From the NCBI GenBank assembly GCA_009840285.1, contig VXOF01000098.1, positions 1 through 42,489 on the forward strand: 42,489 nucleotides of DNA, read 5' to 3'. The notes under the pieces are model-generated. The model did not search any database. It was given only the letters and a program-made list of their open reading frames with translations, and was not told where the DNA came from. Positions within the stretch are counted from its first letter, which is position 1, and each line of letters opens with the position of its first letter. Below are positions 25,408 to 38,266 of the stretch, in pieces. The stretch comes from Nitrospira sp. SB0662_bin_26. Its GTDB lineage: Bacteria; Nitrospirota; Nitrospiria; Nitrospirales; UBA8639. A program made the position numbers and the translations under genes.

Positions 25408-25607
25408 TGGCTCGATCCCTGACCTGAAGTGTAACGCCGGCTCATCCGGCACTCAACGACTACCGCATTCCTTTCCCGGCATCCATCCGTACCGACCCAC
25501 CCGATGATTCTTGATCATTGCCACTCATTCGCGATAGAACGTCACGTTGTTGCAGCATCGAATTCTCATCAACCGCTCACCATCACAATCCAGTCGGAGG
25601 CACACAC

Positions 25608-26612
25608 ATGAACCACACGCCTGAGAAAATCATGCACTTGGGCACGGCATTCTGGGGATCCAAGACCTTGTTGAGCGCGGTCGAACTCGACGTGTTTACG
25701 GTGTTGGCCAGGAAGCCGATGGATGCCGAAACCCTGCGAAAGCACCTCGGCCTGCACGAGCGAAGCGCCATGGACTTTTTCGACGCGCTGGTGGCCCTGG
25801 GCATGCTGGAACGGCAGGAGGGTCTCTATTCCAACACGCCGGAAACGGCCCTCTATCTTGATAAGGCCAAGCCCTCGTATATCGGCGGATTCCTGGCCAT
25901 GATGAACGCCCGGTTGTATGGATTTTGGGGCAATCTCACCGAAGGCTTGAAGACGGGCCTCCCCCAGAACGAAGCCAAAGACGGGAAAAACATTTTTGAC
26001 GTCCTCTACAGCGATCCGGCCAAGCTGGCGAGTTTCATGCAAGCCATGACCGGTGTCAGCATGGGCACCAGCAAAGCCATCGCCCAAAAATTTCCATGGA
26101 AGAATTATCGAACCTTGATCGACGTCGGCTCGGCTCAGGGCGGGTTGATCGTCGAAGTCGGCAAGGCGCATCCGCATCTGACCGGTGGAGGATTCGACCT
26201 CCCCGTCACCGGCCCCATCTTTGAAGAATACGTGGCGTCGTTCGGACTTAGCGAGCGGTTCACATTTATCCCCGGCGACTTCTTTACCGATGACCTGCCT
26301 TCCGCCGATGTGCTCTCCATGGGGCACATCCTGCACGACTGGAACTTGGAGCAGAAAAAGACGTTGATCCAAAAAGCCTACGACGCCCTGCCAGACGGCG
26401 GCGTCCTGCTCGTCTTCGAATCGATTATCGACGACGAACGACGCGAGAACGCGTTCGGGTTGCTGTTGAGCCTCACGATGCTCATTGAAACCCGGGGAGG
26501 ATTCGACTATACGGGCGCGGATTGCTGCAACTGGATGAAAGAGGCCGGGTTCCGGGAAACGCGGGTTGAACACCTGGCCGGCCCCGAATCCATGGTCATC
26601 GGAACGAAGTAA
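25608..26612 (+). CDS. SAM-dependent O-methyltransferase (methyltransferase_2 type)
   Basis: A 334-residue two-domain methyltransferase. The N-terminal winged-helix dimerisation domain (about 10-90, with a '[23 protein letters not shown]' helix-turn-helix-like segment) is followed by a Rossmann domain. SAM is bound through [17 protein letters not shown] near 170, GDFFTDDLP near 222 and the catalytic-region ILHDWN near 240, where His is the usual catalytic base of this class. These enzymes methylate hydroxyl groups of small aromatic or polyketide compounds; the substrate here is unknown. A GGAGG site precedes the ATG. The gene ends 16 bp before the left attachment repeat, so it was next to the tRNA-Leu 3' end before the element inserted. 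Confidence 0.85.
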
Positions 26613-26628: not shown

Positions 26629-26642
26629 TGGTGCTGGAGGCC
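26629..26642. repeat. attL: left attachment core
   Basis: TGGTGCTGGAGGCC, identical to 38178-38191. It corresponds to the 3' end (including CCA) of tRNA-Leu on the minus strand, i.e. the remnant of the original target site. Flanking bases on both sides differ from the right copy, so the identity is exactly 14 bp. Confidence 0.85.
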
Positions 26643-26729
26643 AGAACCATGAAGCTAGAAATCGCCTGTATTCATGCATGATTTAGCGAATTTCGATAAT
26701 CTTTCCCCACGTGATTCCCAACAAAAGCA

Positions 26730-26758
26730 TTGAATCTCTGCCTGTGATCATTTAGACT
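26730..26758 (+). promoter_or_regulatory. putative promoter of the left-end cargo gene
   Basis: TTGAAT and TAGACT with a 17-bp spacer, 50 bp before the ATG at 26808. A 10-bp palindrome TCATGCATGA lies further upstream at 26672-26681. Confidence 0.45.
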
Positions 26759-26807
26759 CGCTATATCGTCACGTTCAAAAAACCATTTAACATGGAGGTC
26801 TGCTAAG

Positions 26808-27206
26808 ATGTCTATTTATCCTGGCTACTATATGTCTACAGGAAAACTAACCGAAGATTACTTATCCTCCATTTCCGAACGGCTCGCCTCGATAGAACAA
26901 ATCATGAAAGAATCTGCCATGCAAGCACGCCCATTCCAGGGAAGGAACCCACACGCACATAAAGAAGTATTTTCAATAGATGCTGACGGGATACACATTC
27001 CTCCCCAACTAAGGGTTCAGCTTACGACGAAGAAAAACAGGGAACTGGAAAATCTTAGGGCACAAGTGCTTCGACTCAACCGTGAACTCTCTGTAAAGAA
27101 CAACACGATCAACCAGAAGGATCACACGATCATTACATTACAAAAACAGATTGCCGACCAAGAGCGGCTTCTGGACGCGTACGCACAAACTAGCGATTGG
27201 GATTAA
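26808..27206 (+). CDS. coiled-coil protein of unknown function (element left-end gene)
   Basis: A 132-residue protein, not recognised. It is the only rightward gene of the element, which is typical of independently expressed cargo or 'moron' genes. Residues 1-60 are mixed polar. From about 72 to 125 a long heptad-like coiled coil runs (ENLRAQVLRLNRELSVKNN, then INQKDHTIITLQKQIADQE). A segment at about 55-67 (FSIDADGIHIPPQLR) looks like a short beta hairpin. GGAGG precedes the ATG. It has its own promoter and ends 40 bp before the convergent zinc-ribbon gene. Roles such as regulator or helper interference are possible but unsupported. Confidence 0.65.
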   Translation: MSIYPGYYMSTGKLTEDYLSSISERLASIEQIMKESAMQARPFQGRNPHAHKEVFSIDADGIHIPPQLRVQLTTKKNRELENLRAQVLRLNRELSVKNNTINQKDHTIITLQKQIADQERLLDAYAQTSDWD

Positions 27207-27246
27207 AGGAAAAGGAGAACGTCGATTCTAGGCCCCTTCTCGTGCG

Positions 27247-27474
27247 TTAGTGAACAGTAGCGACGGGAGCCGACGCGGGAGACTCGACACCATAGATATA
27301 AGCAAGAGACTCTTGCATGTGTTCATCCATGTATGACTCTAACGATTCCCCAGGGGCTTTGCTTTCTCCAAACTCTCGCAACTTGTCCCGAAGATCAACG
27401 CATACCTGACAAAGAGGGAAAGACGGCTCTAGGTGTATCGCTTGCTCTGATTTACAAAAACAGCATTCCATCAT
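27247..27474 (-). CDS. small zinc-ribbon protein
   Basis: A 75-residue protein with a CxxC pair at residues 4-7 (ECCFCKSE) and a second pair near 22-25 (LCQVCVDL), a zinc-ribbon layout, followed by an acidic helical tail. It is coupled to the portal gene through TAATG and is the last gene of the head operon. The function is not known; small zinc-binding proteins at phage operon ends are often regulators or assembly helpers. Confidence 0.65.
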   Translation of the reverse strand: MMECCFCKSEQAIHLEPSFPLCQVCVDLRDKLREFGESKAPGESLESYMDEHMQESLAYIYGVESPASAPVATVH

Positions 27475-28565
27475 TACGCCTCGATTGCCGCTAGTCCACT
27501 GATCCCCGCCGCTTTGTTTGCATCCATGCCAGCCTCGACCATCTTCTTAAATGAAGTAGAACGGGCTGCTATATCGGCTGCAAACATATTAGCGAAGTTA
27601 AGCGATATATCCGTTTCCAGTTTCTTTGATAGTTCCTCGCTCATCAAGTTTGCAAGAGGTTGCACGGAACCATAGATAAATTGCCGCCACGCCTCCCTTG
27701 CACCCTGGCTTGAACCTTGAGCCTCAAATAATCCGGTAGGTACTCCACAAGCCGCTAAAATTGCTCTTCCCATATCGGAACGTAGCACGGCTAACACTTC
27801 GGGAGGGGCTGCACCTATCCTTGAAGGCATCCAATCTCTTTGTGGGGCTGCCTGTCTTCCGTCACCATGTCCGGCTGCGGTAGTCTCAAGTAACGCATTC
27901 TGTCCGCGTAGTGCGTTAATATCCTTCCTTAGCTGATCGTGCATTCCTGGCTTATCATCCGTTCCAGGGCTTTTGTCATGAGGCACAGGAAGTAAATATC
28001 CTACAGGGCCGCTTGCCTCTTCCCCTAATCGTGTCTCAAGACTGGATGCAAGTTTGCCGCTTGTATTACACCAACCTAACGGGCTAATCCCGTTCCAGGG
28101 ACGGCTTGCCTCGAATGAGTAGCGGCAATGGACAACGGCATTTGAAGGTTGATAACTCGACACGCTGCCAGAAGGCCCGTAGATATGAATGTGATAGACC
28201 CACTCGCTTTCATCAACGCCGCCCGTTATATCCCATGAGCCGCACGGAGACAAAACCACGTTTCCCTTTTCCACTCCAATAAGCTGCACGTCTTCCCCAT
28301 AGCGGATAAGGTTTCGTGCAATCAACGCTAAAAGGGAAGGGGTTAGAGCCGCTTTCACTCGTTCGCTTGCCTTCACGTCTGCACCTGCAAACGCACGTGC
28401 ATATTGTCCGGCTGCGGCTTCGACGGCTGCAATCGTCAACGCACTTCCGGCGCTACTTCCCGTTGCTTGAGCCTCTAAATGATTTAGGATTAAATCGTGG
28501 TAGGGCTGCGTTGATCGTGTCTCTATCTTCTCATGCCAATTGAACGGCCAAAAGCTCCAAGTCAT
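27474..28565 (-). CDS. phage portal protein (HK97 type)
   Basis: A 363-residue portal. In HK97-like phages twelve copies form the ring through which DNA enters and to which connectors attach. The N-terminal Trp/Phe-rich start (MTWSFWPFNWHEK) and Ser/Ala-rich VEAAAGQYARAFAGADV segment near 50 fit the family. So do the conserved middle (WVYHIHIYG near 142, VVHCRYSFEASRPWNGISPL near 163) and the 'ILAACGVPTGLFEAQGSSQGAREAW' region near 270. The length is at the short end for portals (usually 380-450). Its start overlaps the adaptor stop (TAATG). In phages portal normally lies directly after terminase; here it is near the end of the operon. Confidence 0.85.
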   Translation of the reverse strand: MTWSFWPFNWHEKIETRSTQPYHDLILNHLEAQATGSSAGSALTIAAVEAAAGQYARAFAGADVKASERVKAALTPSLLALIARNLIRYGEDVQLIGVEKGNVVLSPCGSWDITGGVDESEWVYHIHIYGPSGSVSSYQPSNAVVHCRYSFEASRPWNGISPLGWCNTSGKLASSLETRLGEEASGPVGYLLPVPHDKSPGTDDKPGMHDQLRKDINALRGQNALLETTAAGHGDGRQAAPQRDWMPSRIGAAPPEVLAVLRSDMGRAILAACGVPTGLFEAQGSSQGAREAWRQFIYGSVQPLANLMSEELSKKLETDISLNFANMFAADIAARSTSFKKMVEAGMDANKAAGISGLAAIEA

Positions 28566-28912
28566 TATAATGCTCTTCTCTGCTTGAAGGGAGACAGTAA
28601 CGTTTCTGCTCCACTATGTTTCAAGACGCCTGTTTTATGATTGCTAAAATACTCAACTTCCAAGTCATCAACCTTTTGTGACTTGATCCCGCCGTCACGT
28701 TTCCTTGTGCTATGTATCCAGCCTGTCACTCGTACCACGGCTTCATTTTCGATTGCATCCGGTACGGTAGAGCCGCGTGTATATTCCTGCACTATTGCGC
28801 TTGCAACATCAAAGAGCCGTTGTCCTTTGGTGTCTAAGGTGTCGGTTTCTGTGATGAAGTCATCAAGATTCAACTCTTGAAACACTTCTAACCCTGTGAT
28901 TGTGATTGCCAT
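28565..28912 (-). CDS. head-tail connector/adaptor protein
   Basis: A 115-residue protein resembling gp6-like adaptors of HK97-type phages. It has a short N-terminal acidic helix, then 'FDVASAIVQEYTRGSTVPDAIENEAVVRVTGWIH', where a helix followed by 'A-V-x-x-x-A-G-W' is characteristic of adaptors that build the ring under the portal. The C-terminal part ends 'SGAETLLSPFKQRRAL', and the 'S-G-A-x-x-L-L-S-P-W/F-x-x-R-R-A' ending is typical of the family. It is coupled to the portal gene by TAATG. Confidence 0.75.
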   Translation of the reverse strand: MAITITGLEVFQELNLDDFITETDTLDTKGQRLFDVASAIVQEYTRGSTVPDAIENEAVVRVTGWIHSTRKRDGGIKSQKVDDLEVEYFSNHKTGVLKHSGAETLLSPFKQRRAL

Positions 28913-28923
28913 ATCCTACCTCG

Positions 28924-29658
28924 TTAAAGCCATACATAATGACGTTGCATATCATCAAAATCGTGTTGCCTGTCTGTGTCTCCCTCTTCCTGTTCCTCAT
29001 CTTCTCTTGCCGTCACTTCGCTTTGAGAGTATGCCGGTCTTGTCACAAGGGATAGCTCCACAAGCACCGCTTCGTTAATCTTTCGGATTAGTACCTCTTC
29101 GTTTCCAGGTTCGGGAATGAACTCTTCGGCATTCTTTACTACCTTTGGGTCTGGCATAAGAAACCCAGGGCTAACGCCTCCCACTAAGCCCATTTCAATT
29201 GACTTCACTGTGTCGGAAACATGGCTAGGCCAGTCTTCTTCAGAATCAGGCAAGTCAACGGAAAATTCCAGCCTTGGGTCTGCTTCATCTTCGATTAGCT
29301 TAATGGTAGCCGTTCCCGCCATAAGCGACCCTAGCGGCTTATCAAATGAATGACCGGCTAATATGTGAATGTTACGACGGCTCAAGGCTTCCGTGGCCTC
29401 TTCGACGGCTTGCTTTGCGGCTCCCTCTTTGAGCAACTTATCAAGATCGTCTTTCATTTGTTTGAACATACGTAGCGACCACCGGAAAGCGCGTTTATCT
29501 ATCATTTCCTTACGCCGCTTCCCTCGGTTTCGCATCGTGGCATAACGTCGTAGCTTCCCCCCGCTTAGCCCAAACTTGCCGGATATAGAACGGCCACCAC
29601 CACGGCCACCCCTGCGGATTTCTAACTCAACTGGGTATTCCAAATATTCAAGATTCAT
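28924..29658 (-). CDS. prohead protease (HK97 family U35)
   Basis: A 244-residue protease that trims the N-terminal delta domain of the capsid protein during head maturation. The catalytic His is in GHSFDKPLGSL (His103) and the serine block is VELSLVTRPAYSQ (about Ser203). VGGVSPGF near 160 is the conserved 'G-x-S-x-G-F' segment. An N-terminal basic Gly-rich stretch (RRGGRGGGRS) and a ~20-residue helical insertion before the His strand are unusual. A TAATG overlap couples it to the gene before it. Confidence 0.82.
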   Translation of the reverse strand: MNLEYLEYPVELEIRRGGRGGGRSISGKFGLSGGKLRRYATMRNRGKRRKEMIDKRAFRWSLRMFKQMKDDLDKLLKEGAAKQAVEEATEALSRRNIHILAGHSFDKPLGSLMAGTATIKLIEDEADPRLEFSVDLPDSEEDWPSHVSDTVKSIEMGLVGGVSPGFLMPDPKVVKNAEEFIPEPGNEEVLIRKINEAVLVELSLVTRPAYSQSEVTAREDEEQEEGDTDRQHDFDDMQRHYVWL

Positions 29659-30155
29659 TACTGTATCAAACCTTTCTGTAAGGCTATCTTCACGGCATGC
29701 ACATTATTGAATGCGTCTAATCGCTCTCTAATGCGGCTTAACTGATTGACTACTGCTCCCATGCTTACCCTATTTTTCATAGCGATTATTGTTAGAGACA
29801 AGCCGTTAGAATAGTCCGTTAAGTATGCCGCTTGCTTTGGTGTTATCGTACCTTCTCGTTCGATCTGTTTGTTATAACGTCGTTGATCCATTCTCGCTAA
29901 GGCATCCTCGGAAAATTCATATTGACGGGCTTTCGGATTTTTCCTCTTATGTTGTCGCTTGCGACGTTGCCGGATACTCTCTGCTAGTCTTGCCTTTCTC
30001 TCTTTTCTGTCTGCTATCATGCCCTCGATAACATCTTGCATTCTATCTTCTGTAACGTGTTTCTCTTCCTTTGGTTTTCTCTCATCTTCGGGTTTGAGAG
30101 TGTTTCCTTTGCTATAGATCAACTCTTCTCTAACACTTATTTTTGCTTCCCACAT
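29658..30155 (-). CDS. basic protein with LuxR-like helix-turn-helix end (candidate small terminase)
   Basis: A 165-residue protein of unknown function. ATG 30155 is preferred over an upstream GTG because GAGG lies at the right distance and the GTG falls inside a stable hairpin. The middle is highly basic (RQRRKRQHKRKNPKARQ near 62-78). The C-terminal 55 residues (AYLTDYSNGLSLTIIAMKN, then RVSMGAVVNQLSRIRERLD) resemble a GerE/LuxR-type DNA-binding helix-turn-helix. It lies between capsid and protease, where no such gene is expected. Since no small terminase is recognisable elsewhere and those often carry N-terminal HTH domains, it is a candidate for that role, or a late regulator. Both are inference. 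Confidence 0.6.
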   Translation of the reverse strand: MWEAKISVREELIYSKGNTLKPEDERKPKEEKHVTEDRMQDVIEGMIADRKERKARLAESIRQRRKRQHKRKNPKARQYEFSEDALARMDQRRYNKQIEREGTITPKQAAYLTDYSNGLSLTIIAMKNRVSMGAVVNQLSRIRERLDAFNNVHAVKIALQKGLIQ

Positions 30156-30176
30156 AAAACAATCCTCAAAAAAAGT

Positions 30177-30407
30177 GGGAGGGTATTTGGAGAAACCTTG
30201 TGAAGAAGCCACACAAGGCTATGTTTCGTGACACCCTCCCGTAACTCATAAATGGTGGAGAGAGGTTAGCCTATGCGAGTAAACTAACCTCCCCCCGACG
30301 GAGAAGGAAAAAGGCTCTAGCGGAGTAACTAGAGAGACAACCCTTCTCCGTTGTGAGGAAGGGAAAAAGGCTCTAGGACAGTTAGACTAGAGAGGTAAAC
30401 CCCTTCC
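30177..30407 (-). ncRNA. block of four nested hairpins between capsid and the next gene
   Basis: In the 262-base gap downstream of the capsid gene four stem structures lie side by side. (1) 30177-30184 pairs with 30233-30240, enclosing CCTTGTG/CACAAGG (30196-30202 with 30212-30218). (2) GAGGTTAG 30262-30269 pairs with 30284-30291. (3) A perfect 10-bp stem 30298-30307/30342-30351 encloses CTCTAG/CTAGAG. (4) 30357-30363/30401-30407 encloses another CTCTAG/CTAGAG. Modules 3 and 4 share AAAAAGGCTCTAG and CTAGAGAG with different outer stems, i.e. the pairing is kept while the sequence changes. No U tracts follow, so these are not ordinary terminators. The function is unknown. Confidence 0.6.
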
Positions 30408-30417
30408 CCATTTATCG

Positions 30418-31650
30418 TTATGACGATACGCGGTAAGCAACCTGCTCGAACGCATCCGGCTGAACTAGAAGAACGTCTCCCAAAAGCACATGGAAGGTTA
30501 CGTAACGCTCGCCTCGACTTGAGCCAGAATAAATATCGTCAATGGACACTTGGCCCCAGTGCGGACAAACCGCCACGCGCAAGCCTTCCCGTCCTTTACG
30601 GTACAAAATGGCTTGTGCAATATGGTTTGTCTTATCGGGCATACGCTTATTTGTCCAGAAGCCTCCCGTATACTTTCCGGCATAGGCTGCGGCTGATAAT
30701 TCGCTATCAGTGCCTTGGAAGGTCGAAGCGGCCAAGCGGTAGGTTTCAGGATTGACCACGATAGAAACATCCATCAAGGTATTAGACCAAAGACCATCTA
30801 TTCCGGCGGCATGTTGCTTTGCGAAGCCTTCCCAGTTCACAACACCGGCTGCGGGTGCGGCTGGATTCGTCAAGCGTTCAAAGATACCCGTTAAATTGGC
30901 TCCGCTCCCGTCGCCATTCAAGGCTTGCTTATCCAGTTCATCAGAAAGGACAAGGCTTAGATTTTCCCGAAGCACATTTTCAAAATTCTGCGCTCCCACG
31001 GCTGCCACGTCTTCAAGCGCAATACTCAAACGGGCTGATACCCGTTTAGGTGTTGCCGTTGAAACTGTCATTTCTGCGGCTGTTGCCTCTTGCGCTGCTC
31101 CCTTGGCCTTTGCACCGGCTGTCAATGCCTTGGTAATGGTTGCCGTTGCATAGGTTCCACTCTCAACCCTTGGCATATCAATTCCCAAACGCGGAGCAAT
31201 GGATTTTGCAAACACCATAGGTCTAATCGTGTCCAGGTTGACACCGACCGTAGCAGGCGCACCTGTGACGGCATCGGCTCGTTGTTCAATATCCCACAAC
31301 TCAATCGGGATTCCATCAACCTTAGCGGCTTGTTGTAATTCCAACTCGACACCTTGCGGCAACTTACCGGCCATGTAACGGCCAACGTAGTTAGTCAAAC
31401 TTGCCTTTGATCTCAGTTCGAGTCTTTCCCGTTGCTCGTTATCAAGCGGTTGTGTCTCTTCGCGGGTTTCAAGGTCTTCGCCTTCGGCAAGGATAGCGGC
31501 TCGCTTTTCCGTTTCAAGGTTTTTCATGCTCTGACTAAGCTCGTTCAACTCTTGCAAGTCTTCGGCTGTTTTCTCTTCCTTAGACAACAACTCGTTCATG
31601 CGTTCGCGTGTCTCAGATTGTCTAAGCTCAATTCGTTGTTTGTGCTTCAT
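30418..31650 (-). CDS. major capsid protein (HK97 fold)
   Basis: A 410-residue major head protein. The first ~80 residues are a charged coiled-coil delta domain (RIELRQSETRERMNELLSK, then LQELNELSQSMKNLETEKR) that the prohead protease would remove. The HK97-fold body follows, with 'TGAPATVGVNLDTIRPMVFAKSIAPRLGIDM' near 133, ALNGDGSGANLTGI near 254, and NPETYRLAASTFQ near 301, all typical P-domain and A-domain blocks. ATG 31650 follows AGAAGG; an upstream GTG would overlap the HNH gene more deeply. Downstream lies the hairpin block, not the usual adaptor genes. Confidence 0.9.
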   Translation of the reverse strand: MKHKQRIELRQSETRERMNELLSKEEKTAEDLQELNELSQSMKNLETEKRAAILAEGEDLETREETQPLDNEQRERLELRSKASLTNYVGRYMAGKLPQGVELELQQAAKVDGIPIELWDIEQRADAVTGAPATVGVNLDTIRPMVFAKSIAPRLGIDMPRVESGTYATATITKALTAGAKAKGAAQEATAAEMTVSTATPKRVSARLSIALEDVAAVGAQNFENVLRENLSLVLSDELDKQALNGDGSGANLTGIFERLTNPAAPAAGVVNWEGFAKQHAAGIDGLWSNTLMDVSIVVNPETYRLAASTFQGTDSELSAAAYAGKYTGGFWTNKRMPDKTNHIAQAILYRKGREGLRVAVCPHWGQVSIDDIYSGSSRGERYVTFHVLLGDVLLVQPDAFEQVAYRVSS

Positions 31651-31651
31651 A

Positions 31652-31939
31652 TCACACACCTTCTTTCATGTTTTGCAAAACATAATAATCCCAGGCCCTA
31701 GAGCCTGTTACTAAAGAGCGGCTTTTGCCTCTCTCAACTCTTGACTTGTCTATATGACAGTCACGGCAAAGCGTTTGAAGATTATCTCTTTCATACGGCT
31801 TGCCGCCTTTGAATATCGGGATGACGTGGTCAACTTGATTCGCGTAACCTCCACAATGCCGACACTTCCAGTTATCCCTATCTAAAACATCCTCTCTGAC
31901 TCGCTCCCATTGCCAATTGTGTAAATGAAAGCGACTCAT
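31652..31939 (-). CDS. HNH endonuclease
   Basis: A 95-residue HNH nuclease. Two zinc cysteines in CRHCGGY near 27-30, the HNH core VDHVIPIFKGGKP near 36 with the catalytic His, Asn in NLQTLC, and CRDCH near 62 are all present. Small HNH proteins next to terminase are needed for cos-site cleavage in HK97-like phages. Its ATG overlaps the terminase stop (TAATG at 31939), and its end abuts the capsid start. This supports cos-type packaging by the element. Confidence 0.87.
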   Translation of the reverse strand: MSRFHLHNWQWERVREDVLDRDNWKCRHCGGYANQVDHVIPIFKGGKPYERDNLQTLCRDCHIDKSRVERGKSRSLVTGSRAWDYYVLQNMKEGV

Positions 31940-33408
31940 TAGCACACCAACAATCTAACGCTTGTCTCTACCGGCTTCCGTTGTAGCTGTCTCGCAAGCG
32001 CCCCACCTGCTAAAGTTGCACAAATGGCTACATCGTCACGGCTCTTCCACTTGCGACGTTTGGACACTCTTAGGTTCCCTTCGTCTTCAATCACGATTGC
32101 TTGACTCAAAGAGTAACGGGCTAACGTGCGGCATTCAGGAACGATGCTTAATGGCCCATCGGCAATAAGCCGACGCAAGCCGGTTATATCTTCCGTGGCT
32201 TCACTCCATCGGGTTTTTCTCTCTATGACTTGCCATGACGTAGGAAGTACGTCTAACAACTGATTCAAAAGGAACCTATCGCAATAAATTACTTCCGGCT
32301 CGATTCCTAACAGTGTCATCTTATCAAGCAAGGTTGCCGGTCTTGCATGCCTCACGCCTTCATCAATCAGTAACGTTCCCTCTTCCCATAACTTTTGATA
32401 AAGACCTTTCGGCACTGCGTCTTGCTTCTCCCTGGCTGCAAGGTCTGGTATCCCTCCACAAAGCGCGTAACATTCAGAGCGACCGTTAGGCCATAAACAC
32501 CAAATAGCCGACCATGACCTATGTGCTCCCAGGTCTAACCCCACAATCGGCTTTCCCATTCGCGGAGGAACAGGACGGCTTTCTACCGTTTTCCAGTCTT
32601 CTACTCGACAAAGCATTTCCTCTCTTGTCTCAACTAGCCGGTTAAGCCGGTAGGCTTCAAAGGATGCTTTCAAAGAGGGGTTAGCCTTTGCCTCTTCGTG
32701 TTCCTGCTTCACCGTTCGCGCTAACTCTTTATTCAAACGGAACATGGGATTCACTTTCCGCACCGTGTCCCATGAGTCCCACGGCTCTTCTATGTCTGCA
32801 CTGATACACGTTACATAGGTTCCCGTCTTCGTATTCGTTCCGGCTTTAATCAGTTCCGGCCACCAAGACCCAGGCTCAGAAGGGGAAAGCGTCCCGATAA
32901 GTAGTAACTTCTGCTCCGGCCTCTTCCCAAGGGATTGACGCAACGCATCAAAGAGCAAGGCTCCATTTCGTGTTTCCCAGGCTGCGGGTTCGTCACCTAT
33001 CAGCACGTTAAATTGAGCAAGCCCCATTGCTCGTTTTCCTGAACTGGATATAGCCCTTACCGTGTTCCCACTTGCCTTGTGTTCAATGCGTAGCCGTTGT
33101 ATAGATTCAGCTATACGGTACTCTTTTTCATGCCCTGCAATCGCCTCTTTGATAAACCCAAACACAACCCTTGATTGCTCAATGCTTCCCGATACAATCA
33201 CAACTTCATTAGGCCCCTTCTTCCCTAGCTTCATTTCAGGATCAAGGAACAAGGCTGCAATCCGTCCGCATAGGAAACTCTTGGCATTCCCTCTAGGCAT
33301 GGACAGAGCCGCAATCCGTACCGATTTTGAGAAAGCATTCCGTGACCATCTTTTTAACTCAATGGGAAGTTTGGGTAACGCACCGGCTATTTTCTGTTCT
33401 AATTGCAT
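31939..33408 (-). CDS. terminase large subunit
   Basis: A 489-residue DNA-packaging motor and nuclease. Walker A is SMPRGNAKS (residues 36-44), with the R-G-N-x-K-S form seen in phage terminases. The Walker B-like motif is VLIGDEPAAWE near 135, and the C-motif is LLIGTLSPSEPGSW near 168. The RNase H-like nuclease part has GLDLGAHRSW near 293 and LLIDEGVRH near 350, and ends with KSRDDVAICATLAGGA near 455. The length is slightly below the usual 500-570. The ATG has no good ribosome site; translation may depend on coupling or on the short upstream frames. No small-subunit gene precedes it. Confidence 0.9.
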   Translation of the reverse strand: MQLEQKIAGALPKLPIELKRWSRNAFSKSVRIAALSMPRGNAKSFLCGRIAALFLDPEMKLGKKGPNEVVIVSGSIEQSRVVFGFIKEAIAGHEKEYRIAESIQRLRIEHKASGNTVRAISSSGKRAMGLAQFNVLIGDEPAAWETRNGALLFDALRQSLGKRPEQKLLLIGTLSPSEPGSWWPELIKAGTNTKTGTYVTCISADIEEPWDSWDTVRKVNPMFRLNKELARTVKQEHEEAKANPSLKASFEAYRLNRLVETREEMLCRVEDWKTVESRPVPPRMGKPIVGLDLGAHRSWSAIWCLWPNGRSECYALCGGIPDLAAREKQDAVPKGLYQKLWEEGTLLIDEGVRHARPATLLDKMTLLGIEPEVIYCDRFLLNQLLDVLPTSWQVIERKTRWSEATEDITGLRRLIADGPLSIVPECRTLARYSLSQAIVIEDEGNLRVSKRRKWKSRDDVAICATLAGGALARQLQRKPVETSVRLLVC

Positions 33409-33445
33409 AAATGACTCATATATAAGTAGTTTATCCTACTATTTT

Positions 33446-33509
33446 GACCCCAGTGAGGCAAAAATCAAAAGCCCCTATAAAGCGAAGCCCCACCGACGAT
33501 CAGACCCCA
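33446..33509. repeat. nested direct repeats before terminase (candidate cos/packaging site)
   Basis: GACCCCA occurs at 33446-33452 and 33503-33509. Inside that pair AAGCCCC occurs at 33469-33475 and 33485-33491. The stretch is GC-rich in an otherwise AT-rich area and sits just upstream of the terminase gene, where phage packaging sites are common. Function is inferred from position only. Confidence 0.35.
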
Positions 33510-33575
33510 CAAACGCGAATAAATGCGACACTCCTTTTTATACGTAGTATTTGCCAGGGTCTTTAATCTATTCAT
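33465..33575 (-). CDS. possible 36-residue peptide gene before terminase
   Basis: An open frame of 36 codons starting at an ATG that overlaps the stop of the short frame upstream (TGATG). The product is basic at the N-terminus (MNRLKTLANTTYKKECR) with a hydrophobic glycine-rich end (GLIVGGASLYRGF). It could be a coupled small protein, a truncated remnant, or chance. It partly overlaps the repeat block at 33446-33509. Confidence 0.3.
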   Translation of the reverse strand: MNRLKTLANTTYKKECRIYSRLWGLIVGGASLYRGF

Positions 33576-33646
33576 CAAAGCATGCCTTCCGTTTCCGTCT
33601 GGTGACATGATCTCTTCTCACGCTCATAATTGATTCTCAACATCAT
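33575..33646 (-). CDS. possible 23-residue peptide gene coupled to the gp10-like gene
   Basis: A 23-codon frame whose ATG overlaps the gp10-like stop (TAATG), the same junction used elsewhere in this operon, and whose stop overlaps the next short frame. The product is polar (MMLRINYEREKRSCHQTETE). The coupling pattern is the only evidence. Confidence 0.25.
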   Translation of the reverse strand: MMLRINYEREKRSCHQTETEGML

Positions 33647-34203
33647 TAGAACATACCATCAAGACCTTGAGGTTTAGAGACTTGCCTATACCCGCCTTTC
33701 CAGTAGTGTTTCCCTGCTTTCAGTTTCATATCTGCACCCAGGACGGCAAGGTTAGCCCTCACTTCTGCGCCTATGCGACCGGCTGCGGTAGGGGCTAAGG
33801 TGTTGGCGGCTTCCTCTAGGTATTTCCATTGTCCAACATTCGACCATGATCCAGGAGGGTAGGCTTTGCCTTTTCGATCTAACCCATGAGTCTTACCCGA
33901 ACGGGGCATTTCGTGAATGTAGGTTGCATACGGTACGCCCGTTGTTCCTCCATACCCTAATTCAACCTCATAGACAGGCCCGTACCGTTCCGGCTTATTG
34001 ACGTATGCAGAGGCTTGTAAAGCCCCTGTAGCGACCGGAACCTTTGTCTTTGATAGGGCCATCATGCGCTTACCTTCGCTATGCAAAGACGCACCCACAA
34101 GCAGAGGTATCAATTCCTCGAAGTTCTTAGCCTTCGCCCAGGCTTTTTCATACCCTTCTAAATACACCCTGGCATGCCGTGGTCTTCCTCTAGGACGTGC
34201 CAT
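33646..34203 (-). CDS. HK97 gp10-like head-tail connector / minor head protein
   Basis: A 185-residue protein. 'KTKVPVATGALQASAYVN' near 53-70, 'YEVELGYGGTTGVPYATYIHE' near 78-98 and 'KYLEEAANTLAP' near 127 match the HK97 gp10 family layout (V-P-V-x-T-G-x-L-x-x-S ... G-Y-G-x-x-x-x-x-Y-A-x-Y-x-H-E). In phages these proteins complete the neck between head and tail tube. Its presence without tail genes would let a helper tail dock. It normally lies downstream of the adaptor; here it is at the start of the operon, 3 bp after the LuxR-like gene. GAAGAGG precedes the ATG. Confidence 0.78.
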   Translation of the reverse strand: MARPRGRPRHARVYLEGYEKAWAKAKNFEELIPLLVGASLHSEGKRMMALSKTKVPVATGALQASAYVNKPERYGPVYEVELGYGGTTGVPYATYIHEMPRSGKTHGLDRKGKAYPPGSWSNVGQWKYLEEAANTLAPTAAGRIGAEVRANLAVLGADMKLKAGKHYWKGGYRQVSKPQGLDGMF

Positions 34204-34206
34204 AAT

Positions 34207-34410
34207 TTACCTCTTCACCTTTAGCAGACACCTTAACAACTGCACTTTGGAATGAACGCCTAGACGGTTATATATATCGTAAAAATGAGTGCTAACCGTT
34301 CTAGGAGATACGCCAAGCACTGCGGCTATCTCTCGATCCCGTAACCCATCAAGCATAAGCTCTACTATTTCTAACTGCCTTCGAGTTAAAAGCCGTGCGT
34401 TCCTGTTCAT
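34207..34410 (-). CDS. stand-alone LuxR/GerE helix-turn-helix protein
   Basis: A 67-residue protein consisting of only a GerE-type DNA-binding domain: LTRRQLEIVELMLDGLRDRE, then IAAVLGVSPRTVSTHFYDIY and NRLGVHSKVQLLRCLL. The family pattern (L-T-x-R-E ... I-A-x-x-L-x-V-S-x-x-T-V-x-x-H ... R-L) is complete. GGAGGGAGG lies upstream of the ATG. As the first gene of the head operon it is likely the element's activator of late genes, similar in position to small activators such as AlpA or ArpU in other satellites, though of a different family. Confidence 0.8.
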   Translation of the reverse strand: MNRNARLLTRRQLEIVELMLDGLRDREIAAVLGVSPRTVSTHFYDIYNRLGVHSKVQLLRCLLKVKR

Positions 34411-34441
34411 TAATCAATCCTCCCTCCTATACTCTGCACAT

Positions 34442-34471
34442 AGTCTAACATACGTACTAACCCTATGTCAA
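34442..34471 (-). promoter_or_regulatory. putative promoter of the head operon
   Basis: On the minus strand a consensus TTGACA (34466-34471) is followed after 18 bp by TAGACT (34442-34447; TTAGAC at 17 bp is the alternative). It lies 31 bp before the ATG of the LuxR-like gene. The same TAGACT -10 sequence occurs in the promoter at the element's left end. Confidence 0.55.
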
Positions 34472-34618
34472 GTAAACTACGTAAACTTGTGTTTTTGCGC
34501 TGTACGGCCAGGAACGGCCAATTGAAAACTATTCAGAGAGAGGTAGAGAGTGGAGTAGAGAGAGAAGTATGCTAAGAATCAATCCTCGAAGGAAATAGAG
34601 GGTATATAGAGAGGATGA

Positions 34619-34774
34619 TTAGGTTTGTTTAAACTTAGAATCTAAAGGTCTGGTTTCAGCATATCCAGTACTTTTCATATACAGAGGTTTCCCTAATTTT
34701 CTCGCTTTCTCTATTCGTTGTTTCCCTGTTTTCAGCGAGCCTTGCATCTTTTTCTTCCTTTGTGACTTAGACAT
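34619..34774 (-). CDS. small basic protein (51 residues)
   Basis: A 51-codon frame with a clear ribosome site (AAAGGGG, 7 bases before ATG). The product is very basic (MSKSQRKKKMQGSLKTGKQR, then KARKLGKPLYMKS) with an acidic-poor tail, resembling small nucleic-acid-binding phage proteins. No family is recognised. It precedes the LuxR-like gene by about 200 bp, separated by the head-operon promoter. Confidence 0.5.
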   Translation of the reverse strand: MSKSQRKKKMQGSLKTGKQRIEKARKLGKPLYMKSTGYAETRPLDSKFKQT

Positions 34775-35425
34775 AGCTATCCCCTTTCGGTATTTAACAA
34801 GAGGCCCATATTGCTTTATATATGGTGAATGCTTTTATGGGACGATACTCTTTATTAAACTATTCTCGATAACAGAATATAGACTCTATTAAGTCTAACC
34901 TACTTGTTTCCCCTCTATGCTATCCATCATAGTCCACTGCTCTATATCAAGGAACAGTGCTTGCTATTACTAGCACTTCGATCATGCTTTTTTTAGGAAG
35001 CAATCAAACCCCTTGTTTATCTATACAACGGATGAGTCGGTATCGGCCAATTTTCAAACTCCGATAGGACAGTTTCTAATCTCATTGCCTTAATTTTCAT
35101 TAAAGGCCCCCGAATTGTCGTCTCCACGGATTAGCATGTAAGACTACCAGCTATTTCATCGACCGCTACCGGATCGGGCGGTATTGTCGGCATCCATCTC
35201 CGACACGGAAACGCTTTTATAAGCATCTCATGTATACCATTTTTCGCGGTTTCAAAATATGAGGCGAATGGGGAAAGTTGTATTTTCAATAGCGTACCAA
35301 AAGAAACCGAAAAGAAACGGAAAATAAACCACTCACTAATTGTCACCATTCTAAATGAGAATGCGGTTAAATCTACGTTACGTGTCAATAGGACTAATGG
35401 CCTAGGCTACTAGGTAGATAAAGAA
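34775..35425. other. 650-bp AT-rich region without convincing genes
   Basis: This lies between the head operon and the cargo cassette. It holds only short frames (a 27-codon one at 35017-35100 minus, and a Phe-rich one at 35131-35388 minus). It has several inverted repeats: TAGACT/AGTCTA at 34880-34897, TATCGG/CCGATA around 35041-35066 and TGTCGG/CCGACA at 35185-35205. Near 35299-35330 AAAGAAACC-type units repeat three times. The area could hold the element's replication origin, operators or packaging site. No conclusion can be drawn from sequence alone. Confidence 0.4.
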
Positions 35426-35465
35426 ATACCCAATCGAGAAAGGTGCATTCGCCTCGACTGGGTAT
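35426..35465 (-). terminator. rho-independent-like terminator of the cargo cassette
   Basis: ATACCCAGTCGAG pairs with CTCGATTGGGTAT across a 14-base loop (13-bp stem, one mismatch) and is followed on the minus strand by TTTCTTTAT. It lies 50 bp after the last cassette gene. Confidence 0.65.
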
Positions 35466-35514
35466 GCCAATAAACTGCTTTGCTATTTCCCTTGCAATTA
35501 CCGCAACCCATCCT

Positions 35515-35937
35515 TCATGCCGCAAAGCTTTCTACGTCAGCCAATGTCAATTGACGATGGTTGTCGCCATCGCATATCTCTAGCATATCGATAGAAATGG
35601 CTTTGATCATTTCGCTACATTCATCATCGGTCAGGCAATGTAAATTCATGTGGCACTTGTCGCCAGTATCCGACGGTTTGTATTTAAGTACGGCTTCTTT
35701 GGGTAGATCGGAGGTAGGGATTCTCCAAAAGACAGGAGGGTCTCCTGAGGGTTTTGGGAAATAGAAACGGCGTATGTGTTTACATTCAGTCCCGCTACTC
35801 TCTTTTGCACATTGCGTGTCGATAACTGATACTCCTCTATTTCCTGAGGAATTCTTGAATGCCAAGCTCGTAAATCGCTGCTTTTTCTTACTATAGTGTT
35901 TGCGATGAAAGAGTCGAATAATTTCTTTAACCTCCAC
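35515..35937 (-). CDS. cassette gene C: protein of unknown function
   Basis: A 140-residue protein, not recognised. It starts with GTG after a strong GGGAGGG site that lies inside the preceding gene, so the two overlap by up to 292 bp in different frames. The N-terminus is basic (KEIIRLFHRKHYSKKKQR); a segment 'RRFYFPKPSGDPPVFWRIP' near 57 and a cysteine/His-rich acidic end (GDKCHMNLHCLTDDECSEM near 92-110) follow. It is the last gene before the terminator. It looks more protein-like than the other frame in the overlap. Confidence 0.6.
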   Translation of the reverse strand: MEVKEIIRLFHRKHYSKKKQRFTSLAFKNSSGNRGVSVIDTQCAKESSGTECKHIRRFYFPKPSGDPPVFWRIPTSDLPKEAVLKYKPSDTGDKCHMNLHCLTDDECSEMIKAISIDMLEICDGDNHRQLTLADVESFAA

Positions 35938-36341
35938 GACAACCCTCCCAAATATTCAACTATTTCGTCTATCATCACATCTTTCTTCTTATGGACAACT
36001 TCATCGTTTGTCTCATGTATTATGTCAGTGTGCCCGTCTTGATTACAGAACACCTCCAAAGTGTGCTTTTCATGATAGCCAGAAACTAAAATGCCACCAT
36101 CAAGATCGGGAAACACTTCGATTTCTCTGATGCCGTATTTGATAAAATAGGAATGAATCGTCAATGCCGCTTCAATAGCAAGCTCGGTCGCACCGCGTCC
36201 TTCACCATAATGCCAACCATGATCCAAATCGCGGAATGAGCGAATTTGAGCCCTAATTTTAGGATTTTCCTCAGCGTTATAATTTAACTCAATACCTTGC
36301 ACCATATTCTGGTGCGTGGTCTTGTATGTCCTCACATTCAT
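35646..36341 (-). CDS. cassette gene B: conserved-looking unknown protein
   Basis: The frame spans 231 codons, but the first ~130 residues carry all the visible order: IRSFRDLDHGWHYGEGRGA near 32-50, ALTIHSYFIKYGIREIEVFP near 58-77, DLDGGILVSGYHEKHTLEVF near 78-97 and an acidic HETNDEVVHKKKDV. This is an alpha/beta arrangement I recall as recurring in uncharacterised bacterial proteins ('D-x-G-W-x-x-G-x-G ... E-V-F-P-x-x-D-G-G'). The remaining ~100 residues overlap gene C and look like out-of-frame sequence; a frameshift that removed an earlier stop is possible. Its start overlaps gene A by 4 bp (ATGA). Confidence 0.6.
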   Translation of the reverse strand: MNVRTYKTTHQNMVQGIELNYNAEENPKIRAQIRSFRDLDHGWHYGEGRGATELAIEAALTIHSYFIKYGIREIEVFPDLDGGILVSGYHEKHTLEVFCNQDGHTDIIHETNDEVVHKKKDVMIDEIVEYLGGLSWRLKKLFDSFIANTIVRKSSDLRAWHSRIPQEIEEYQLSTRNVQKRVAGLNVNTYAVSISQNPQETLLSFGESLPPIYPKKPYLNTNRRILATSAT

Positions 36342-36643
36342 TTTTTGGGCCCCTTTTTGGCCTTATCTATAGCTTCTTTTACATTGTCCATTGTCGCAAT
36401 TGTGTGATTTGTTTGGCGCTCCAACACTTGTATTGCTTTGTTTAGATGCGCCACCAGTGTTTTGGCGGTGTTAAATGACATAAGCAATTGGCAATGCTGG
36501 CGACCATTTGTCATGGCAATGATATTTAAATCGGACAATGTTATACCGACTTCGAAACCGTTGAGGTAGATTTGGGGCATGACAACTGCTTGGTCGTCTG
36601 ATTTCTTAATAAGATCGACATCCGATTGTGTTTCGTCAACCAT
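36338..36643 (-). CDS. cassette gene A: small protein resembling the DUF3467 type
   Basis: A 101-residue protein. ATG 36643 is chosen for its AGGGAG site; an upstream TTG was rejected. 'PQIYLNGFEVGITLSDLNII' near 23-42, 'MSFNTAKTLVAHLNKAIQVLE' near 55-75 and a Lys-rich tail give a pattern (N-G-F ... S-D ... A-K-x-L ... L ... E) like the DUF3467-type small proteins of unknown function. It is the first cassette gene, overlapping gene B by ATGA, and has its own extended -10 promoter. Confidence 0.6.
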   Translation of the reverse strand: MVDETQSDVDLIKKSDDQAVVMPQIYLNGFEVGITLSDLNIIAMTNGRQHCQLLMSFNTAKTLVAHLNKAIQVLERQTNHTIATMDNVKEAIDKAKKGPKK

Positions 36644-36699
36644 ATTTTTACTCCCTAAAGAAAACCCGTTCAATTATTTGCTATTAATCTACTACGTTC

Positions 36700-36708
36700 A
36701 TCATACCA
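36700..36708 (-). promoter_or_regulatory. extended -10 promoter of the three-gene cassette
   Basis: TGGTATGAT on the minus strand fits the extended -10 consensus (TG-N-TATGAT), with TTGACT just upstream of it at a distance too short for a normal -35. It lies 57 bp before the ATG of gene A, between integrase and the cassette. Confidence 0.45.
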
Positions 36709-36773
36709 AAAGTCAACCTGGCGGCTTTGATTCAGATAAGCAGCTTCCTTATCGCTTTATTTCTGGCCCTTCC

Positions 36774-37922
36774 TTAATTGCCCTGTTCCGTTTCGTGCTG
36801 TAGGTAATCAGCCCACGCTTGCATGACTTCCTTTCTCTGTTCCAATAAATCAGACCTCAAATAGGCTGCATCAAGACCCTGCAATTTATGGCCTAATGCT
36901 GCCTCTGATACTGCCCTAGCAATCCCCTTTTCTTCGCACCATGTTTTGAAACAGGCTCGACTAATGGCATGAGGTACAGCCGGAATCCCGTTATCCTTGA
37001 CGGCCTTACTAATTGTTGCGTCACTCATGACGCTTCCCCGCTTTGCCGGAAAGATTAATCCGGTATCACCAAAATGCTCTTTAGCTTCATTCAAGATTGC
37101 CAGCGCACGAGAAGACAGAGGGATACATAATGATTCCCCGGTCTTTGTTCGTGGTCCGGGCAAGTGCCACTGTTTCTTTTCCATATCAATCTCGGACCAG
37201 TCCGCTTTTCGTACCTCTTGCGAACGTGTAGCCGTTAGAATCAAAAACTCAAAAGCTAACTTGGTAGATATGAAAGCCGTGCTATCACGAATCGTTTGAA
37301 TCGCTGCTCCGACTTGATCATAGGGAATGGTTTTAAAATGTCCTTTTAGCTTTGTCGCGTTCGGTAAGTGTCTTGTCGATATAGAGTCTACCGGATTGTC
37401 GGAACGGAAACCTTTCGTTTTAGCCCGTTCTAAGACAGCCCCAATACGCCGTTTGACCTTCTGGCCCATTTCATGTTTGGTAGTCCACAACTTTTCGACT
37501 ATTCCTAGCACGTCATTACTTGAAATTGCGTCTACCTGCTTATGCATGATTCCCTTGGCATGTTGCTCTAAACATGCCCTCCAATGTTTTTCTGTATTCC
37601 CTCCATTTTTCCAGGTAGGCCGATTAATCTTAATGACTTCTTCAAGTAACTCTGAAAATGTCGGAACCTCTTCTTTCTTTTCCTTCAAGATAGGTTCACC
37701 TCTATGTACCTTGCGCCGATTATCAAAGGCTTTCTCCCGCGCTTCCTCGATGGAAACTATCGGCCACGGACCCAAGCCAAGATCACGCCGCCGTCCCTTA
37801 ATCACAAGCCTTTGAATCCAGCTTTTTGAGCCTCGCGGAGAAACGCACATATATAATGTTCGATCATCTCGGTACATTCCTCGTTTAGCGAGCTTTTCAA
37901 TCTTCAACTTCGTAAGACCCAT
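36774..37922 (-). CDS. int: P4-type tyrosine integrase
   Basis: A 382-residue recombinase of the P4/DUF4102 type. The N-terminal arm-binding domain is visible (LTKLKIEKLAKRGMYRDDRT, YMCVSPRGSKSWIQR, 'GLGPWPIVSIEEAREKA'). The catalytic domain has Arg in TATRSQEVRKADWSEID near 240, Lys in RTKTGES, and the nucleophile Tyr354 in AYLRSD. ATG 37922 is preceded by an excellent GGGGAGG site; upstream codons were rejected. Box II reads H-A-I-S-R instead of H-x-x-R, one residue longer than usual. It lies 255 bp from the tRNA-Leu 3' end it targets. Confidence 0.93.
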   Translation of the reverse strand: MGLTKLKIEKLAKRGMYRDDRTLYMCVSPRGSKSWIQRLVIKGRRRDLGLGPWPIVSIEEAREKAFDNRRKVHRGEPILKEKKEEVPTFSELLEEVIKINRPTWKNGGNTEKHWRACLEQHAKGIMHKQVDAISSNDVLGIVEKLWTTKHEMGQKVKRRIGAVLERAKTKGFRSDNPVDSISTRHLPNATKLKGHFKTIPYDQVGAAIQTIRDSTAFISTKLAFEFLILTATRSQEVRKADWSEIDMEKKQWHLPGPRTKTGESLCIPLSSRALAILNEAKEHFGDTGLIFPAKRGSVMSDATISKAVKDNGIPAVPHAISRACFKTWCEEKGIARAVSEAALGHKLQGLDAAYLRSDLLEQRKEVMQAWADYLQHETEQGN

Positions 37923-37966
37923 AATTCCTCCCCTGAACGTGTTAGATAAAGAATCACCTAACCTGT

Positions 37967-37995
37967 ATCCTAACATTTTTCCCCACATAATGCAA
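37967..37995 (-). promoter_or_regulatory. putative integrase promoter
   Basis: On the minus strand TTGCAT (37990-37995) and TAGGAT (37967-37972) are separated by 17 bp, 44 bp before the integrase ATG. Confidence 0.5.
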
Positions 37996-38072
37996 GAAAA
38001 ATTCTCAAAATTCTTGAAATTGATTTGACAGACGGGGAGAGGGAAATAGAACGCTGCGCTATTGACAAATTT

Positions 38073-38094
38073 CAATAAACCTTTATATTTATTG
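38073..38094. repeat. inverted repeat near attR (possible arm-binding site)
   Basis: CAATAAA and TTTATTG flank 8 bases in a very AT-rich stretch between integrase and attR, where integrase or excisionase arm sites are expected. Confidence 0.4.
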
Positions 38095-38177
38095 ATATTT
38101 ATGAGATATTACGTAGGGCTGTTTGCGGGATAAAGTGCGGCAGGACGGGGGATTTGCAGGAATCTATTTTGAGAATT

Positions 38178-38191
38178 TGGTGCTGGAGGCC
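38178..38191. repeat. attR: right attachment core within tRNA-Leu
   Basis: TGGTGCTGGAGGCC, identical to 26629-26642. On the minus strand it is the last 14 bases of tRNA-Leu (including CCA), so the tRNA stays intact after integration. Confidence 0.85.
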
Positions 38192-38266
38192 GGACTTGAA
38201 CCGGCACGCTTCTTGCGAAGCACGGGATTTTAAGTCCCGGGTGTCTGCCTGTTTCACCACTCCAGC
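38178..38266 (-). tRNA. tRNA-Leu (anticodon UAA), CCA encoded
   Basis: Read on the minus strand, GCTGGAG and CTCCAGC form the 7-bp acceptor stem, followed by A and CCA. The anticodon stem CGGGA/TCCCG encloses the loop CTTAAAA with anticodon TAA. A long variable arm (TGCTTC, loop, GAAGCG) marks a class II tRNA, and GCCGG TTCAAGT CCGGC is the T arm. The 3' end is the integration target of the element. Confidence 0.95.

Follow-up and report, generated by a model that had tools for sequence, protein, structure and literature searches.

Island and integration site

The window, which is the whole 42,489-nucleotide stretch of DNA analyzed here, contains a mobile island of 11,549 bp inserted at the gene for tRNA-Leu(taa). 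The island is located on contig C106 of a 2.2-Mb assembly that is 98.8% complete, and is bounded by an O-methyltransferase gene (25518–26612) on one side and by the tRNA gene on the other. Its features are as follows.

26629–26642, no strand: attachment repeat, far end; exact repeat, empty sites
26808–27206, plus (opposite) strand: coiled-coil-like ORF, 132 aa; no clear family
27247–27474, minus strand: ORF, 75 aa, overlapping the portal stop; no family match
27474–28565, minus strand: portal protein, 363 aa; PF04860, 1.6e-10; 45% identical to the C82 portal
28565–28912, minus strand: head–tail adaptor/connector, 115 aa; phrog_442, E 0.0014; homologues in C82 (44%) and L010 (50%)
28924–29658, minus strand: prohead protease (S78); PF04586, 5.6e-14; 56% (L010) and 42% (C82) identical
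29658–30212, minus strand: 184-aa protein with a C-terminal helix-turn-helix; 39% identical homologue in L010
30418–31659, minus strand: HK97-type major capsid protein, 413 aa; PF05065, 1.9e-7; 36% identical to the C82 capsid
31652–31945, minus strand: HNH endonuclease, 97 aa; Pfam HNH, 5e-10; phrog_144, 2e-19
31939–33408, minus strand: TerL, terminase large subunit, 489 aa; phrog_9, E 1.9e-39; 73% identical to L010 TerL
33646–34203, minus strand: 185-aa protein, candidate HK97 gp10-like neck/tail-completion protein; motif only
34207–34410, minus strand: GerE/LuxR-type helix-turn-helix protein, 67 aa; Pfam GerE, 2e-16
34619–34774, minus strand: small basic ORF, 51 aa; no family match
35515–35937, minus strand: ORF, 140 aa, overlapping the 231-aa ORF in another frame
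35646–36341, minus strand: orphan ORF, 231 aa; weak match to the candidate defence family PDC-M32A (E 6e-4)
36338–36673, minus strand: orphan ORF, 111 aa; weak TerS-like match (E 0.06)
36774–37964, minus strand: tyrosine integrase, 396 aa; Pfam Arm-DNA-bind_3, Phage_int_M, Phage_integrase; PHROG phrog_1, 7e-43
38178–38191, no strand: attachment repeat TGGTGCTGGAGGCC, tRNA side; exact repeat, empty sites in four congeners
38178–38266, minus strand: tRNA-Leu (taa), integration target; ARAGORN and Rfam

The sequence TGGTGCTGGAGGCC (plus strand) corresponds to the final 14 nucleotides of the tRNA-Leu gene, CCA included, and within the sequence scanned its second copy occurs only at the far end of the island; the expectation of one such 14-mer by chance in 40 kb is ~3e-4. 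In four congeners (G004, G001, G012, and G006) the site is empty, with the methyltransferase-side flank and tRNA-Leu meeting exactly at the 14-bp repeat, and the island is therefore an insertion with exact ends. A chance origin of the repeat, considered as an alternative, is ruled out by these empty sites. Both the extent of the island and its attachment repeats, as proposed in the initial annotation, are thus confirmed. The GC content of the island is 46%, compared to 53–56% in the flanks. The excised circle, for which a search had been suggested, was sought as an attP junction pattern in the IMG/VR viral contigs; the pattern had no match there, and no packaged or excised island molecule was seen.

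The tRNA-Leu gene is an integration hot spot that carries other insertions in congeners. Integrases 53–55% identical to that of the window adjoin tRNA-Leu in G003 (L029:1161-2282) and in G013 (L028:7599-8326), where the copy is split over two frames; no head-gene homologue was found in the stretches examined in these two genomes. The insertion in G011 (L032:1920-11020) encodes a PLD-helicase protein, a Fic protein, an Eco57I-type methylase, and an ApeA-like HEPN protein, a content that marks it as a defence-like island. In G008 the insertion (L030:1292-8961) contains three ORFs with sizes matching those of G011 and is probably also of the defence type.

Gene content of the island

Counted from the tRNA, the gene order is integrase, the orphan ORFs of 111, 231/140, and 51 residues, the 67-aa GerE protein, the 185-aa ORF, TerL, and HNH, followed by the HK97-type capsid, the 184-aa protein, the S78 protease, the connector, the portal, and two small ORFs. 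The integrase and the HK97-type head genes that had been read from the sequence are borne out by profile matches, which cover the integrase, capsid, S78 protease, portal, HNH, TerL, and adaptor.

The remaining ORFs are less easily placed. The 231-aa ORF is possibly cargo. It shares ~290 nt with the 140-aa ORF in different frames (35515–36341); the latter may be a second gene or the true continuation of the 231-aa ORF past a frameshift. The 67-aa protein is a candidate regulator of the late operon; the LuxR-type activator described initially does contain a GerE helix-turn-helix, but consists of nothing more than this bare motif. The 185-aa protein has a gp10-like look (VPVxTGAL...ATYIHE), an identity for which searches of Pfam (also at E 10), PHROG, NCBIfam, and the PDB gave no support; BLAST against the Neck1 protein of the C82 element described below gave none either. 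AlphaFold predictions had pLDDT values of 34 for this protein, the model of which is not usable, and 57 for the 184-aa protein, which is possibly TerS or a regulator. The segment between the capsid and the 184-aa gene (30290–30393) contains a 32-nt direct repeat and terminator-like hairpins; at the same position L010, a viral contig, has a 107-aa connector gene that is missing from the window.

No tail, lysis, primase, replication, or repressor genes were recognized in the island with Pfam and PHROG profiles, as the initial annotation had stated, although a repressor or replication gene could be present in unrecognized form among the orphan ORFs. Tail profiles run over the island gave no convincing match, with a single weak coiled-coil match at E 0.011. 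PHROG and other profiles yielded no convincing TerS either, and this subunit could be encoded by the orphan ORFs of 111, 184, or 67 residues. The description of the head and packaging set as complete is thus too strong because TerS was not found, while its head genes, TerL, and HNH are all supported by profiles.

Three tail profiles found no tape-measure or sheath gene elsewhere in the genome, where tail genes next to a split copy would have spoken against a satellite. Profiles of the tape measure (PF10145 and phrog_29, which we take to be a tape-measure family) and of the sheath (PF04984) had no match in the assembly and did match in control genomes; other tail types may escape these three profiles. 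The only phrog_222 match in the assembly is the Neck1 gene of the C82 element.

The C82 element and a viral relative

Searching the assembly with TerL and with the capsid family revealed, on contig C82, another element built on the same plan, a new finding of this analysis. This element comprises 10,511 bp and is located at tRNA-Lys, with a 48-bp repeat of the tRNA-Lys 3′ end at its far side; the site is empty in relatives. The order int–TerL–HNH–capsid–protease–connector–portal is that of the window, and the element additionally encodes a second head/collar protein, a Neck1/tail-completion protein on the opposite strand (phrog_222, 6.9e-12), and a weak AlpA/excisionase-like protein (HTH_17/phrog_66). 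Identity to the window is 45% for the portal, 44% for the connector, 42% for the protease, 36% for the capsid, 27% for TerL, and 24% for the integrase. The head genes of the two elements are thus related, whereas the elements are unlike in integrase, attachment site, and cargo, and their TerL proteins have diverged much further. The 526-residue TerL of the C82 element aligns to those of the HK97-like phages HK022 and HK446 at ~25% identity.

L010 (IMG/VR contig 3300012947_000010), which is 5.8 kb long and incomplete, holds the cassette a third time, with the gene order of the window. It comprises TerL, HNH, capsid, a connector (phrog_3881), a homologue of the 184-aa protein, protease, a second connector, and portal, of which the phrog_3881 gene is an extra one, absent in the window. 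Identity to the window is 73% for TerL, 56% for the protease, 50% for the connector, 39% for the 184-aa homologue, and ~30% for the capsid. Between L010 and the window, synonymous sites are saturated while the protein sequences stay conserved and no frame is interrupted, a pattern such as would be expected for genes kept by selection.

These relatives bear directly on the question of whether the island is a defective prophage, decaying where it was integrated after the loss of its genes for tail, lysis, and replication. Such an origin might account for the orphan ORFs, including the two that overlap in different frames, as well as for the missing TerS and helper. However, the two elements differ in integrase, attachment site, and GC content yet share the head-only layout, their head genes are intact and conserved between them, no fragments of tail genes were recognized, and the viral contig L010 holds the cassette once more. 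A single decayed prophage was rejected as an explanation since two differently integrated elements share an intact head-only cassette, and we regard decay as unlikely overall. One tailless cassette in a genome could be a decayed prophage; two of nearly equal size, at different sites and with different integrases, whose intact and mutually homologous head genes follow one order, together with a neck protein from a family that connects heads to tails, are much better explained by satellites that build heads and take over tails.

The island could also be a self-sufficient temperate virus of HK97 type, tailless or with a very short tail, which would rely on orphan genes for entry and on host functions for replication. 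It does have head, connector, and integration genes, ~2 kb of it encodes unknown proteins, and no helper is known. Genes for adsorption, lysis, and replication were nevertheless not recognized, and the Neck1/tail-completion gene kept in the C82 element implies a tail partner, making autonomy of this kind quite improbable.

Distribution of relatives

Relatives of the island are very rare. In the phage records searched, TerL of the window had only matches of 23% identity, and its capsid and portal had none; the head genes therefore did not fall inside one ordinary prophage lineage, the placement that had been named as arguing against a satellite. No phage protein was returned by PDB profile searches with the capsid pair and the portal pair or by a TerL search. 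No other clear relative was present among the 147 to 396 related genomes searched, with a weak capsid match in G036 alone, and none was found by single-protein scans of viral contigs or by two alignment scans of genome_contigs, each resting on two short peptide patterns and thus not exhaustive. The G036 match was dropped as a relative, as it lies in an ordinary portal–protease–capsid–connector order. The array in question, on contig C204 (L008 / L011) of this same-family genome, is possibly a prophage of this host group.

The proposed look for the same island in other genomes did not reveal it: the site is empty in four congeners, and TerL, capsid, and portal of the window are absent from all 13 congeners searched. 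This absence, together with the integrase and the tRNA attachment sites, indicates a mobile island and not a conserved host function. It also weighs against a domesticated head that would serve the cell, for instance as a compartment or as a GTA-like vehicle of gene transfer, a role otherwise suggested by a capsid, protease, portal, and TerL unaccompanied by other phage functions. Additionally, to our knowledge, known GTAs carry tail genes, and we consider domestication highly improbable.

Interpretation

The island is integrated at an exact site, its head cassette is intact, it has no recognizable tail, and the design recurs in the C82 element and in a viral contig. Since two tailless head elements are present in one genome, both are probably satellites that use the tails of helper phages, and we consider it likely that the island is an integrative satellite that builds its own head and depends on the tails of a helper. 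Several observations count against this reading: no TerS, primase, or recognizable repressor was found in the island, no helper phage was identified, no packaged or excised molecule was seen, and relatives are very rare. Tail proteins also diverge fast, so that one of the orphan ORFs could be a small adsorption gene that went unrecognized.

For every functional step beyond integration we infer the following course. The integrase would insert and excise the island at tRNA-Leu, and a helper phage would induce it. The late operon would then yield a presumably small HK97-type head built of the capsid, protease, and portal, and TerL and HNH would fill this head with the 11.5-kb DNA of the element. 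The connector, possibly with a neck protein, would offer a point of attachment for tails made by the helper, and replication and lysis would come from that phage as well.

We can further speculate, with somewhat less than even confidence, that the elements constitute a self-capsid satellite lineage with an origin independent of the known radiations of capsid-forming PICIs (cf-PICIs), in a bacterial group without described satellites, and that two divergent members in one cell exchange head and terminase genes and perhaps compete for helper tails. Most descriptions of satellites that build heads and borrow tails come from enterobacteria, Firmicutes, and Streptomyces. Two divergent ones in one distant environmental genome, if true, would imply a wider origin or spread of this strategy, and would offer a natural pair for asking whether different satellites share helper tails.

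Comparison with known systems

The HK97-like temperate phages HK022 and HK446 have the same head gene families as the elements described here, but TerL of the window lacks the ~25% match to them that is seen for its C82 counterpart. These are phages of 36–41 kb with tails, lysis, and replication, and of the tail, lysis, and replication modules of an ordinary prophage none is recognizable in the island. Canonical PICIs carry AlpA and a primase and have no complete head of their own, whereas the island has HK97-type head genes and no recognized primase. The lack of a primase and of AlpA noted initially holds for the window as far as recognized genes go; of possible counterparts to a PICI-type regulator (AlpA or Stl-like), the window has a GerE-type helix-turn-helix only and the C82 element its weak excisionase-regulator gene.

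The closest likeness is to cf-PICIs, which make heads and take tails (PMC10690885, PMC11389934). As in those islands, an integrase and a specific attachment site are found in a chromosomal island that has its own major capsid protein, maturation protease, and portal, as well as TerL with an HNH endonuclease (Pfam, PHROG), and no tail genes in a profile search over the island; head–tail connectors are also present, the weak phrog_442 match being backed by homologues in both relatives and Neck1 in the C82 element. Size is a further likeness, at 11.5 and 10.5 kb compared to a cf-PICI mean of 14 kb (PMC10803314). The elements differ from cf-PICIs in that no TerS was found, in AlpA (none recognized in the window and a weak one in the C82 element), in head genes without close relatives in phage records, in the cassette order TerL–HNH–capsid–protease–connector–portal, and in a host that is probably outside the groups listed in PMC10803314. 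The best reading, by analogy of gene content with published descriptions of cf-PICIs, is that of self-capsid satellites that would work like them and need helper tails. Of the initial proposal of a member or analogue of cf-PICIs, we retain the analogue, based on the exact ends, head cassette, lack of a recognizable tail, C82 element, and viral contig, and do not file the island as a member.

A second likeness, again in gene content, is to MulchRoom and MiniFlayer, Streptomyces satellites that encode a capsid and packaging proteins of their own and of which MulchRoom has an integrase and a tail that appears to be helper-supplied (PMC10690885). These satellites differ from the elements described here in that they parasitize virulent actinophages and are characterized by terminal repeats and a scaffold gene (PMC10690885).
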